From positions 1 to 40,458 of the IMG/VR virus record IMGVR_UViG_3300020220_000127: a DNA stretch of 40,458 nucleotides; one strand, 5' to 3'. A program made the position numbers and the translations under genes. Below are positions 18,465-36,460 of this stretch, one piece after another. This stretch comes from a virus. The stretch's first letter is position 1. Each line of letters opens with the position of its first letter. The notes beneath the pieces were generated by a model, which saw only the letters and a program-made list of their open reading frames with translations, was not told the origin of the DNA and did not search any database.

Positions 18465-18926
18465 TTAGTCCCAGAAGTTTTCAAGGCCGGGTGGGCAGTG
18501 CCATTTCTTGCAGATAGTGTTTGTACCATTGAGCGATTTCCACCGGCAGCACCAACCGGACAAATCGGTTCCAGTCTGTGGAATGACAATTAAGGGATAT
18601 ATTGGCAGGTTTACTTGAGATGCCTTTTGAGCCCTCCAGCTCCAGCCATACCTGTTGCGTTGATACGCAGCAAGTTTTACATCTACCTCATATATATTGC
18701 CTTGGTACTTAAAGCAGAGATCAGTTTTACCATCACAGCCTGTGTTGCGAAATACGGTTGCTCCTTTTGCCATCAACGCTGCAGTAGCGTATACCTCAGC
18801 AATATCTCCAGCTCTGTTGGGGCTGAAATCAATGAGTGTCAGCCCACGTATTTCCGGTACTAGCTTTAGCGGCGATTGGGATTCGGAGATTGTAATATTC
18901 TCCAGCTTGAGCTGCTGCGAGTTCAA
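18465..18926 (-). CDS. Putative PD-(D/E)XK nuclease
   Basis: The 153-residue frame has a PD-(D/E)XK-like core: RAGDIAEVYATAALMAKG (Glu44), CDGKTDLCF (Asp69), then IYEVDVKLA with Glu80, Asp82 and Lys84, followed by a Tyr/Trp-rich segment. This order of helix-Glu, Asp and D/ExK is that of small restriction- or resolvase-type nucleases. The ATG at 18926 implies a 98-base overlap with the polymerase gene, and the first about 30 residues look less native. A non-ATG start near the polymerase stop is possible. It could trim or resolve DNA alongside the adjacent gp6-like exonuclease. Confidence 0.65.
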   Translation of the reverse strand: MNSQQLKLENITISESQSPLKLVPEIRGLTLIDFSPNRAGDIAEVYATAALMAKGATVFRNTGCDGKTDLCFKYQGNIYEVDVKLAAYQRNRYGWSWRAQKASQVNLPIYPLIVIPQTGTDLSGWCCRWKSLNGTNTICKKWHCPPGLENFWD

Positions 18927-20100
18927 GATTAAACATTAGATTGTCCGCGTGTGCGGGGTTACATTCAAACTGAAGCTCATCATGGACAAATGCCAGTTGA
19001 TCAGCTTCGATATTCAGTTGTTTAATGTTGTCTTGTGCGATGACCATCCATCGCTTAGCAATGACACCAGCTCCTGATTGCAGGAGATAGTTCAGAGCTT
19101 TGTGAGGCCCGTCAACGTTAATCTTTCGTCCATCAATCGAATTGATGTAGCCAGTTGATTGAACCTTTTTCTTGACGGCCTCAACAAGATCGCTAAGACC
19201 TTCAATTGCATTAAGATACGCTTCTCGTATTTCTTTTCCCTTTTGCTTTGCCTTTGCGGGAGAAAGCTGAGGGTCATAGGAAAATCCGATCTTTTCGTTG
19301 CCAGCCCCATAAAGGAAAGCATAGGTAACGGTTTTGACAAGCTTACGACTAATGCCAATCTTGTCGGCATTAACTTGGTGAATGTCGCCATTAAGAAGGA
19401 TCTCCCCATAGCGGCCACCGTCATAGCGACTAAGGTAATGCGCGAACATCCGCAACTCGATGCCGCTAAGATCGGCCCCAACCATGCATAGTCCTGGAGT
19501 TGCTGTGAATAGTCTTCTGAATCTTTCATCAACTGGAACTTGGGCCATATTTGGATTTCGGTGAGCGCAGCGATGTGTGTTAGTAGCAACTGAGCAGTTG
19601 TGATGAATGCGGTTCTTACGAACTAACTTCAACCAGGCATTGGCACCTTCCGATAGCATGCCTAATTGTTTACTTAGTTCAAGACACTGAAAGAACTCAA
19701 GAGCAATCGGCGTACCGATGTCTTTGAGAACTACTTCGTCAATGGTTGCCTTACCTTTATCAGTAAACTGATTAGGTGTCCAACCGTAGAACTCTTTCAT
19801 CACCCACGCAATGTGGTCTCGACTGGTTGGGTTAAGATCCTTGAGGCGCGTAAATGTGCCATCTGTGAAATATCCTCTGGTCGAGTTAGGACGACGAGGA
19901 GTAAACTCGCTTCCCGTAACGAAAGGATGTTTCTGTCTAAGAGATCCTTGCAACGCATCAAGTGCAGATCGAAGTTCGCATTCCAGCTCATGAGCGGATC
20001 GTTCATCGAAGTACCAGCCATGTAGTTCTTGTTTGGTAAGGATTTCAGCAACTCGATGTTCTAACGTGATCCAGTCAGGTATTTTTGGAAGTGATTCCAT
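18829..20100 (-). CDS. DNA polymerase, A-family polymerase domain (separate ORF)
   Basis: From the ATG at 20100 it has 423 residues and carries all polymerase motifs: motif A GADLSGIELR with Asp210, motif B RKLVKTVTYAFLYGAG with Arg252, Lys256 and Tyr260, motif C FVHDELQFE with His373-Asp374-Glu375. The start MESLPKIPDWITLEHRV aligns in pattern with the T7 gp5 junction between exonuclease and polymerase (SLEAVDIEHRAAWLLAKQE). The 3'-5' exonuclease is in the upstream ORF in another frame, overlapping 40 bases. Together they make about 594 residues, versus 704 in T7. It may be a true two-subunit enzyme or result from a one-base indel. Confidence 0.92.
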   Translation of the reverse strand: MESLPKIPDWITLEHRVAEILTKQELHGWYFDERSAHELECELRSALDALQGSLRQKHPFVTGSEFTPRRPNSTRGYFTDGTFTRLKDLNPTSRDHIAWVMKEFYGWTPNQFTDKGKATIDEVVLKDIGTPIALEFFQCLELSKQLGMLSEGANAWLKLVRKNRIHHNCSVATNTHRCAHRNPNMAQVPVDERFRRLFTATPGLCMVGADLSGIELRMFAHYLSRYDGGRYGEILLNGDIHQVNADKIGISRKLVKTVTYAFLYGAGNEKIGFSYDPQLSPAKAKQKGKEIREAYLNAIEGLSDLVEAVKKKVQSTGYINSIDGRKINVDGPHKALNYLLQSGAGVIAKRWMVIAQDNIKQLNIEADQLAFVHDELQFECNPAHADNLMFNLELAAAQAGEYYNLRIPIAAKASTGNTWADTH

Positions 20101-20576
20101 AGTTTGTGTGTGACTTGAAGATCCTGTACGCAATAATCCTCCATGTCTTGTGACCAGTTTTTCCAGTCAGTTTGTTTTGCAAAGCCACCCTTGTATTCAC
20201 CAAGCCGGTAACCATAAGCTTCAAGAGAGTGTCGGCCATAGAGCTGAAGTGGCATATGATCCCAGCTCCTCGTTCTGTCAATCTCAAGAAGGTTAGGGTG
20301 ATACAGACGACTAAGAACTAGCGTGTCAAGAGTTCGTGGTGGAGTGAACCACGGGTAGAACTTTTGAATGACGGGAATGTCGTAATTGATCACGTTCTGG
20401 CCGATGATCGTACAAGCACCTTCCAGCATCGTGATGGCACGAGCAATAGGCTCTTGAGTACCCTCGTCATTGAAGACAAGAGTCTGATTGTTACTAATGT
20501 CCTTGATAGCAACACAGTGGATTGTCGTAACGTTGTTGTACAGGCCGTCTGTTTCGATATCAAAGAGAAGATTCAT
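20061..20576 (-). CDS. DNA polymerase, 3'-5' exonuclease domain (separate ORF)
   Basis: A 171-residue DnaQ-like domain, the first part of a T7 gp5-type polymerase. ExoI FDIETDG has Asp6 and Glu8, exoII is in GQNVINYDIPVI, and exoIII is near DMEDYCVQDLQVTHKLW. It ends with FQKYLTGSR. Its stop lies 40 bases inside the polymerase ORF. It begins immediately after a small gene's stop (TAAATG). The domain would provide proofreading. Inserting one A in the A5 run near 20084 would join it in frame to the polymerase domain. Confidence 0.9.
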   Translation of the reverse strand: MNLLFDIETDGLYNNVTTIHCVAIKDISNNQTLVFNDEGTQEPIARAITMLEGACTIIGQNVINYDIPVIQKFYPWFTPPRTLDTLVLSRLYHPNLLEIDRTRSWDHMPLQLYGRHSLEAYGYRLGEYKGGFAKQTDWKNWSQDMEDYCVQDLQVTHKLWNHFQKYLTGSR

Positions 20577-35143: not shown

Positions 35144-35473
35144 TTAATTAATCCAAGATAGAATTAGCTGTTCTTTATTGGGGTTCTCACCAAACGTGGC
35201 TCTCATCCATTGGAGCCAGTTTTGACTTCCTTTTGCCTGATTACACTTTCTACAACTTGGCACAAGGTTGTTAGTAAGGTCTTGTCCTCCATAGGTACGT
35301 GGTCGGACGTGATCAAGTGTAAGTTCATTAAGGTCATAAGTTTCTCCGCAATAGACACACTTACAGTCGAAGTGTTCCTTAATAGCTCGACGCCATAGTC
35401 GTTTTGCTTCAGGACTTGTCATTGTTATAAGGTTATGGAGATAGTGATCAGGCGTAGGAAACAGGGGAGTCAT
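35144..35473 (-). CDS. HNH endonuclease
   Basis: A 109-residue protein with a complete HNH domain: CVYCGETY zinc pair, LTLDHVRPRTYGG with the catalytic His, NLVPSCRKCNQAKGS with the second Cys pair. Short HNH proteins near terminase genes can help terminase cut in some phages, or be mobile. It starts right at the previous HNH gene's stop and ends just before the repeat-rich gene. Confidence 0.88.
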   Translation of the reverse strand: MTPLFPTPDHYLHNLITMTSPEAKRLWRRAIKEHFDCKCVYCGETYDLNELTLDHVRPRTYGGQDLTNNLVPSCRKCNQAKGSQNWLQWMRATFGENPNKEQLILSWIN

Positions 35474-35718
35474 TACCGCATTTTGTTTGTCTTACGAGCG
35501 CCTTTGGCACGGTTAGTTTTACGAGGAACAATCTTGAGGTTCTCTCGTGAATTGTTCATCGGGTTCCCATCCTTGTGGTCTACTTCATGGCCATCAGGGA
35601 TGTTGCCCATAGAACGACGTGCTCGGGCTCGACTAGCGTCTTTATCTTTGTTTTTGCGGCGATATGCTTTTAGATACTCAGCACGAGCCTTATACTCTGC
35701 TTTCCAGTCTCGTGCCAT
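35473..35718 (-). CDS. HNH_3-type small homing endonuclease
   Basis: An 81-residue protein with a basic helical start and the HNH_3 core GHEVDHKDGNPMNNSRENLK followed by IVPRKTNRAKGA. This type is typical of free-standing homing endonucleases that move within phage genomes. It overlaps the small terminase end by 29 bases, so it has settled without breaking that gene. The absence of a separate DNA-binding repeat domain suggests a minimal enzyme. Confidence 0.85.
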   Translation of the reverse strand: MARDWKAEYKARAEYLKAYRRKNKDKDASRARARRSMGNIPDGHEVDHKDGNPMNNSRENLKIVPRKTNRAKGARKTNKMR

Positions 35719-35953
35719 TTAAACGACTCCGAACGAGATCAGGATCAATCTTGGGAAGGATGCTGGACAATTGATCTAGTGGGCTGCCTTCCATAGCAAC
35801 ACCAGATATGCTGTTTTTGGCTAGCCAATCACAAGCTGCTTTGAGATCAGCAGTTGTGGCTTCACCACTTTTGATACGGTTAAGCAGTTCTTGTGTGACT
35901 AGGTTGTGGAGTTCGTTGAACTGGTCTTCTGTTGCTTTTCCTTTTCGTGCCAT
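35690..35953 (-). CDS. terS: Small terminase subunit (gp18-like)
   Basis: From the ATG at 35953 it has 87 residues (T7 gp18 has 89). It starts MARKGKATEDQFNELHNLVT, then EATTADLKAACDWLAKNSIS and PLDQLSSILPKIDPDLV, the pattern of gp18-like DNA maturase A. A GTG/ATG eight codons earlier exists but adds residues unlike the family. It recognises the concatemer and recruits the large subunit. The predicted frameshift protein upstream runs 55 bases into it in another frame. Confidence 0.88.
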   Translation of the reverse strand: MARKGKATEDQFNELHNLVTQELLNRIKSGEATTADLKAACDWLAKNSISGVAMEGSPLDQLSSILPKIDPDLVRSRLNGTRLESRV

Positions 35954-36218
35954 GGTGCTGTTAAAGAAATAGACCAACCTTCTTCACCAAAGGTACCGAC
36001 CTCAGTGAAGATAGGTTGATCTATAGTTGACGGGGGAAGATTAAGTTCTTCGATAGCCTGAGTTACAGCTTCCTCAGCCTTTACTTTTTTGGCTTAATGG
36101 CGTTCAGAGCCTGGAGGATAAGCTGGATGATGCTGTTTGACTTCAACGGGGTGAGTGCGATTACTTCGCTAGCAGCAGCAACAATGATCCAAAAGATAGC
36201 AGATTCAAAGATAACCAT
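35899..36218 (-). CDS. Predicted -1 frameshift product of the small membrane protein gene
   Basis: The 0-frame gene at 36081-36218 ends CCA AAA AAG TAA. The heptamer A AAA AAG (36090-36084) is in the correct phase for -1 slippage. The -1 frame is open from there to TAG at 35899-35901, adding 61 residues to make 106. The added part begins VKAEEAVTQAIEELNLPPST, continues with FTEVGTFGEEGWSISL, and has no ATG, GTG or TTG before the terS start region, so it cannot easily be a separate gene. A 5-bp CTGAG/CTCAG stem starts six bases after the slip site. This is a sequence-based prediction. Confidence 0.6.
36081..36218 (-). CDS. Small membrane protein, holin-like candidate
   Basis: A 45-residue protein with one membrane helix (FESAIFWIIVAAASEVIAL), a turn, a second amphipathic helix (SIIQLILQALNAI) and a basic end KPKK. 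It sits just before the small terminase, where T7 has its holin gene 17.5. It may form the lysis pore together with the next upstream membrane/coiled-coil protein. The gene ends in a slippery site and stop, and probably also yields a longer product. Confidence 0.65.
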   Translation of the reverse strand: MVIFESAIFWIIVAAASEVIALTPLKSNSIIQLILQALNAIKPKK

Positions 36219-36220
36219 GA

Positions 36221-36460
36221 TTAGTGAGGGGTAGTGTTAGTAAGAATGGCATCTAGCTTAGTCTCAATTCGACTCATACGCCCTTCAAGCTTGTTCATGG
36301 CGGTTTCTAAGTCGTGTTTCGAGACGTAGTATTGAGCAATGCGGAGTTCAACTCCGTCAATGCGTCTATCAGCGTCAGCGATGCGTGAACTGACGCGATT
36401 AAAAAGGACAAAAGCCCCAGTTATAAGAGCTAGACCTGCAGACACACTGGCTTCTACCAT
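36221..36460 (-). CDS. Membrane-anchored coiled-coil protein (lysis or spanin-like candidate)
   Basis: A 79-residue protein with an N-terminal membrane helix (VSAGLALITGAFVLF, about 6-20) followed by a heptad-patterned helix (IADADRRIDGVELRIAQYY, then LETAMNKLEGRMSRIETKLDAIL). A short membrane anchor with a long coiled coil resembles phage inner spanins or holin-like proteins. It is upstream of the holin-like gene, two bases away. Function is inferred from form and place only. Confidence 0.6.
   Translation of the reverse strand: MVEASVSAGLALITGAFVLFNRVSSRIADADRRIDGVELRIAQYYVSKHDLETAMNKLEGRMSRIETKLDAILTNTTPH

Follow-up and report, generated by a model that had tools for sequence, protein, structure and literature searches.

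Among tailed phages, the best-known cases of conserved frameshifting are tail-assembly chaperones and some capsid and tail proteins, the tail-chaperone heptamer of lambda being GGGAAAG. In Escherichia coli dnaX, frameshifting produces a shorter protein and relies on a strong stem and, upstream, on a Shine-Dalgarno-like element. As for lysis in cyanophages, most holins have, to our knowledge, yet to be identified. The PRFect paper (PMC10885494), a recoding review (PMC5009743), the GeneTack survey (PMC3711429), and reports on phiCbK (PMC3556154) and KL1/AH2 (PMC3483164) place the described phage frameshifts in tail-chaperone, tail-tube and capsid genes. Tail-chaperone heptamers include AAAAAAC in phiCbK and GGGAAAC in Colossus (PMC3556154). 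In the 10A/10B genes of T7 and T3, according to the recoding review, a -1 frameshift near the stop codon gives an extended minor form (PMC5009743). Among lysis genes, dual-start holins have been described in SPP1, where 24.1/24.1* and 26/26* are holin/antiholin genes like the lambda S105/S107 type, and two-component holins are represented by gp24.1/gp26 of SPP1 and XhlA/XhlB of PBSX (PMC6316719).

The window, by which we mean the whole stretch of DNA analysed, is a virus record of 40,458 bp; its genes for the major capsid, nozzle, capsid assembly and TerS proteins are of the T7-like cyanophage type. Sequence comparison makes it very likely that one small gene on its minus strand gives rise to both a short and an extended membrane protein through a programmed -1 frameshift. 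The parts of this gene and its immediate neighbours are as follows.

36218..36081, minus strand: 0-frame ORF of 45 codons plus TAA, encoding a small membrane protein (the short form), PHROG 22542
36090..36084, minus strand: slippery heptamer A_AAA_AAG, in phase and directly before the 0-frame stop
36084 to 35899, minus strand: -1-frame extension of 61 codons plus stop, which fused to the short form gives a 106-aa long form
36058..36077, minus strand: weak candidate stem CUGAG/CUCAG of 5 bp, 6 nt downstream of the heptamer
35690..35953, minus strand: terS (terminase small subunit), Pfam PF11123 (E 1.3e-17), PHROG 891
36221..36460, minus strand: upstream neighbour, a 79-aa protein, PHROG 12220 (unknown function)

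The 0-frame ORF translates as MVIFESAIFWIIVAAASEVIALTPLKSNSIIQLILQALNAIKPKK and its 3′ end reads CC[A AAA AAG]TAA, or CCA AAA AAG TAA by codons, while the -1-frame extension translates as VKAEEAVTQAIEELNLPPSTIDQPIFTEVGTFGEEGWSISLTAPWHEKEKQQKTSSTNSTT. The preceding -1-frame stop begins at 36096, and ATG, GTG and TTG are absent from the -1 frame between 36084 and 35899. An earlier note on this DNA had claimed a 45-codon ORF ending in A_AAA_AAG_TAA with the heptamer in phase, followed by 61 open -1 codons devoid of these start codons; re-reading of the minus strand bore out both claims, and the note, which gave no strand, was otherwise accurate in its description. The extension overlaps the start of terS (35953) by 52 coding nt.

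The 0-frame product matches the PHROG 22542 profile (E 1.3e-18), with residues 3-45 aligned to positions 6-48 of 49, and is also related to PHROG 15106; both models cover the 0-frame part alone, and the fused 106-aa protein gave zero Pfam matches above the curated cut-off. Judged from hydropathy, the short form has a hydrophobic helix at about residues 7-23 (mean hydropathy 2.1) and an amphipathic helix at about 29-42, and ends in lysines. The 79-aa neighbour consists of an N-terminal hydrophobic stretch and then a charged coiled-coil-like region; it adjoins the cassette and takes no part in the frameshift. Elsewhere on the minus strand of the window, two small HNH-endonuclease-like ORFs follow terS (35144-35718), and the DNA polymerase may be split (18829-20576), with 20061-20576 matching a polymerase/exonuclease part and a 434-aa ORF (18829-20133) directly after it.

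With the fused 106-aa protein as tblastn query, close relatives of the gene were retrieved, and scans of IMG/VR added the wider family, which brought the loci where the 0-frame protein can be recognised to 274 (209 distinct). Two-piece matches to the fused protein were obtained in Synechococcus phages 7B11-B, WH11-B and S-B28, and near-identical genes occur in IMG/VR; these isolates and the IMG/VR orthologues all carry CCAAAAAAGTAA together with a conserved -1 frame, which in S-B28 stays open across an in-frame insertion in the extension. The A run, on whose length the earlier note had made its claim depend, is not a sequencing error: identical CCAAAAAAGTAA was read independently in the genomes of three isolates and again in IMG/VR contigs. 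The records of 7B11-B and WH11-B list the 0-frame ORF as a hypothetical protein, and that of S-B28 leaves it unannotated. The terS region of 7B11-B also holds several endonuclease VII genes, one of them inserted before terS. Taken as a whole, the frameshift family spans cyanophages of the T7-like podovirus (window included), siphovirus and uncultured groups, and the isolates S-CBS1, S-CBS3, KBS-S-2A and S-EIV1 are among its members.

A canonical X_XXY_YYZ heptamer is present in phase in 168 of the 209 distinct homologues, ending 0, 3 or 9 nt before the stop. The types represented are A_AAA_AAG (147), G_GGA_AAG (15), A_AAA_AAC (4), C_CCA_AAG (1) and A_AAA_AAA (1). As background, an in-phase canonical heptamer lies in the last codons of 20 of 5237 other ORFs from the same loci, and 3/5237 ORFs combine one with a -1 frame open for at least 45 codons. 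Ten different amino acids occur among the homologues at the position before Lys-Lys/Asn. Where the codon before Lys-Lys is four-fold degenerate, its third base is A in 84/84 clusters vs. 20% elsewhere in the same genes (binomial p 5e-59, a value that ignores relatedness). These codons cover seven amino acids (Ala, Gly, Pro, Thr, Val, Ser and Leu), and because all of them end in A, the heptamer appears to have been maintained repeatedly. Switches of type from A_AAA_AAG to G_GGA_AAG, A_AAA_AAC or C_CCA_AAG leave slipperiness preserved. Together, these comparisons indicate that the heptamer is conserved at the nucleotide level independently of the amino acid.

Heptamer and -1 frame are both kept in every close relative and in about 160 more distant distinct genes, which is the joint conservation that the earlier note had proposed as a check. 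We also looked for homologues that keep the 45-residue protein without the slippery site and the -1 frame; genes lacking the extension almost always lack the heptamer as well (L144-L152, L160 and L283 are without both). Most of the heptamer-less genes (31) belong to the related 65-aa PHROG 15106 type of T7-like cyanophages and have no such extension. In the cases read, the “open -1 frames” of these 31 genes open where the following gene starts or close to it, for example at an ATGA overlap with an endolysin-like start, and they were left out of the extension count. Inspection by eye showed that L175 does carry AAAAAAG, missed by the automatic search through start trimming, and that L213 is the sole homologue to combine the extension with a non-canonical GGG AAA AAG. 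In L137 and L321 the heptamer is present and the -1 frame is merely short and unrelated. The 0-frame gene of L283 ends in KPKSNEEGK, and past its stop the remaining forward frame runs on for 77 open codons.

Across 19 non-overlapping pairs, substitutions in the extension numbered 154/97/389 at the first/second/third codon positions in the -1 frame, and the pooled pN/pS was 0.21, a pattern indicating that the extension is under strong purifying selection. Among homologues the extension is about 40-110 aa long (61 in the window) and mostly polar, and it closes on a conserved short C-terminal motif that reads LGGPMSIHAPWRRD in siphovirus-type members, FGEEGWSISLTAPW in the window and LHIRSPW in others (SISLTAPW, SIHAPW and LHIRSPW are examples of such endings). 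An AlphaFold model of the extension, built from 32 homologues, was of low confidence (pLDDT 65, pTM 0.24).

Other genomes seem to carry the extension as a protein of its own, because its region has a weak match to stand-alone T4-like cyanophage proteins (PHROG 6464, E 0.004). These proteins (T4-GC 410, PHROG 6464; S-CRM01 g111) share the region of its C-terminal motif. In three members of the frameshift family, a hypothetical gene annotated from an internal start probably represents the frameshift gene's second half.

L156:1267-1662: stand-alone homologue of the extension, T4-like cyanophage
L157:1267-1653: stand-alone homologue of the extension, T4-like cyanophage
L158:1273-1809: stand-alone homologue of the extension, T4-like cyanophage
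L155:1282-1647: stand-alone homologue of the extension, T4-like cyanophage
L159:3186-3353: S-CBS3 gp22, extension annotated as a separate hypothetical gene
L162:2671-2907: S-EIV1 AHV82131.1, extension annotated as a separate hypothetical gene
L164:2659-2871: S-CBS1 gp23, extension annotated as a separate hypothetical gene

In S-CRES3 the two halves are separate genes, the extension being ATG-started, and a non-slippery GGGTAAG stands at the site. Between these halves (gp116/gp115, L161:2683-3126) lies a GC-rich hairpin followed by a T run, resembling an intrinsic terminator. A scan of genome contigs gave two matches, both in metagenome-assembled bins, and yielded no cellular home for the family.

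From this sequence evidence, the gene almost certainly uses programmed -1 ribosomal frameshifting. Most ribosomes would reach the 0-frame stop and release the 45-aa short form. At CC[A AAA AAG]UAA, some ribosomes would slip one base back with both their P-site and A-site tRNAs and read on in the -1 frame, appending a tail of about 40-110 residues (61 here); the short form and the C-terminally extended form would then share one membrane part. We favor tandem tRNA slippage because the heptamers are varied yet canonical, no -1 start is conserved, and the 0-frame stop is always close by.

Averaged over the family, the RNA downstream of the heptamer is more stable than its shuffled versions, with a mean z of -1.05 (n=105), compared with -0.30 for a control stretch. 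The 5-bp stem that the earlier note placed six bases downstream is there as described, but with a z of -0.16 it is no stabler than shuffled sequence, and one of its pairs is lost in the close relative L085. An upstream Shine-Dalgarno-like element was found in 1/105 family members and is absent from the window, where no strong stimulator was found. Long hairpins begin about 6-8 nt downstream of the heptamer in L098 and L102. The one in L102 (~2654-2715), about 6 nt after the heptamer, is long and very stable (-33 kcal/mol, z -7.9) and would make a good model site.

Transcriptional slippage on the A run, by which mRNAs of altered length would supply the extension, could draw on the six A's running in the window and the nine in a few members (AAA AAA AAG). 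It is rendered very improbable by the homologues with G_GGA_AAG or C_CCA_AAG, which outside the heptamer triplets contain no run of four or more identical bases and carry the same extension, and by the fact that A runs have not grown longer within the family. Alternatively, the extension might be a separate gene, translated from a non-AUG start of its own or by termination-reinitiation at the 0-frame stop, as could be supposed from the ATG-started homologous domain of S-CRES3, the annotation of S-CBS3 gp22 from an internal ATG, and the in-frame start codons of some members. No start codon, however, is conserved in position among members; ATG, GTG and TTG are missing from the -1 frame not only of the window but of L085, L086, L088, L102, L130 and L142; and separate initiation leaves unexplained why the in-phase heptamer is kept while the amino acids vary. 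We judge this account just as improbable as transcriptional slippage. The probability that a neutral open -1 frame follows the A run by chance, or through sequencing error, is close to negligible: AAAAAAG is fairly common given A-rich codons and the ORF is short, but some 160 distinct genes conserve the site, purifying selection acts on the -1 frame, and the background is the 3/5237 given above. A tail-assembly chaperone was also considered for the identity of the gene and is ruled out by context, the next gene being terS in the window, or mostly endolysin in relatives, and not a tape measure.

The neighborhood of the putative frameshift gene bears on what its two products may do. Within 1.5 kb of the relatives' homologues, the next gene encodes an endolysin in 112/159 and terS in 20, and the endolysin mostly starts where the extension ends. 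A TM-coiled-coil protein, analogous to the 79-aa neighbor in the window, lies upstream in 101/158 relatives. Lysozyme, glucosaminidase, C39-like and M15 types were all found near the homologues examined, and since the catalytic type varies, the association is with lysis as such. In cyanosiphoviruses the gene stands immediately upstream of the endolysin, which makes a lysis role of the products probable. The gene that follows in the window is terS, and no endolysin was recognized among the subset of its proteins that was scanned. The frameshift-less PHROG 15106 relatives adjoin the endolysin, with an ATGA overlap in S-SRP01 and a lysozyme/endolysin nearby in S-CBP1 and P60; this small membrane protein is a candidate holin for T7-like cyanophages.

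L329:1501-1698: S-SRP01, PHROG 15106-type gene beside the endolysin
L327:2501-2698: S-CBP1, PHROG 15106-type gene beside the endolysin
L328:2001-2231: P60, PHROG 15106-type gene beside the endolysin

It is conceivable, if rather unlikely, that the frameshift is real and both products work in packaging or virion assembly, at the membrane and close to terminase, instead of in lysis. Such a role would fit with terS following and overlapping the gene in the window and 20 relatives, and with the stand-alone homologues of T4-like cyanophages adjoining gp3 and uvsY, not lysis genes. It fits poorly with the endolysin that comes next in most relatives, and with the PHROG 15106 relative that overlaps or neighbors the endolysin in T7-like cyanophages. 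Proximity to terS is in itself no argument against lysis, because in T7 the holin gene 17.5 stands just before the terS gene 18. For the frameshift products as lysis proteins, we lean slightly towards a short form acting as holin-like lysis effector and a rarer long form as its modulator, either a timer/antiholin or an adaptor to another lysis protein. A holin/antiholin-like pair had been suggested in the earlier note as one of two possibilities, and it finds partial support: the endolysin directly downstream in most relatives speaks for it, and the terS neighbor in the window does not. More tentatively, and with somewhat less than even confidence, we propose a lysis system, widespread among cyanophages, whose ratio of holin-like short form to tailed modulator would be set by frameshifting and not by two starts. 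If this is true, lysis timing would be tied to translation in a photosynthetic host.

In the accessible part of the literature on phage frameshifts and dual-start holins, mostly open-access papers, we found no description of this gene, in agreement with the earlier note, which knew of none in these phages; a frameshift gene of the cyanophage lysis cassette is likely new. As far as those sources extend, no frameshift gene with such conservation in both podovirus- and siphovirus-like cyanophages, and with a place mostly in the lysis cassette, appears to have been described. Database records of this protein hold just its short half or else a second half with the wrong start (S-CBS3 gp22, S-CBS1 gp23, S-EIV1). 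Cyanophage lysis gains a concrete candidate with a built-in two-product ratio, and the two heptamer types on homologous genes provide a natural test set for comparing how slippery sites behave on cyanobacterial ribosomes.

The gene resembles several described systems without coinciding with any of them. With tail-assembly chaperones of the lambda gpG/gpGT type it shares a conserved -1 frameshift, canonical heptamers and a C-terminally extended minor form; those chaperones, however, are soluble and encoded upstream of the tape measure, whereas here a 45-50-aa membrane protein is encoded beside endolysin or terS, and no sequence similarity was seen. Its heptamer A_AAA_AAG is identical to that of E. 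coli dnaX, but the frameshift would give a longer protein here, and neither dnaX stimulator is evident in the window. The 10A/10B genes of T7 and T3, as described in the review, are likewise genes of T7-like phages with an extended minor form made by -1 frameshifting near the stop, and differ in being major capsid genes with another slippery site and a long-range stimulator. PHROG 15106-type genes differ from the frameshift family in having neither heptamer nor extension. Two-component holins similarly pair a coiled-coil-type membrane protein with a small helical membrane protein beside the endolysin; no sequence similarity to them was detected, the coiled-coil protein here has its TM segment at the N-terminus, and one partner carries the putative frameshift. 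As in dual-start holin/antiholin genes, a single gene of the lysis cassette would yield two versions of a small membrane protein, but while dual-start forms differ at the N-terminus through a second start, the two forms here would differ at the C-terminus through a tail encoded by frameshifting.
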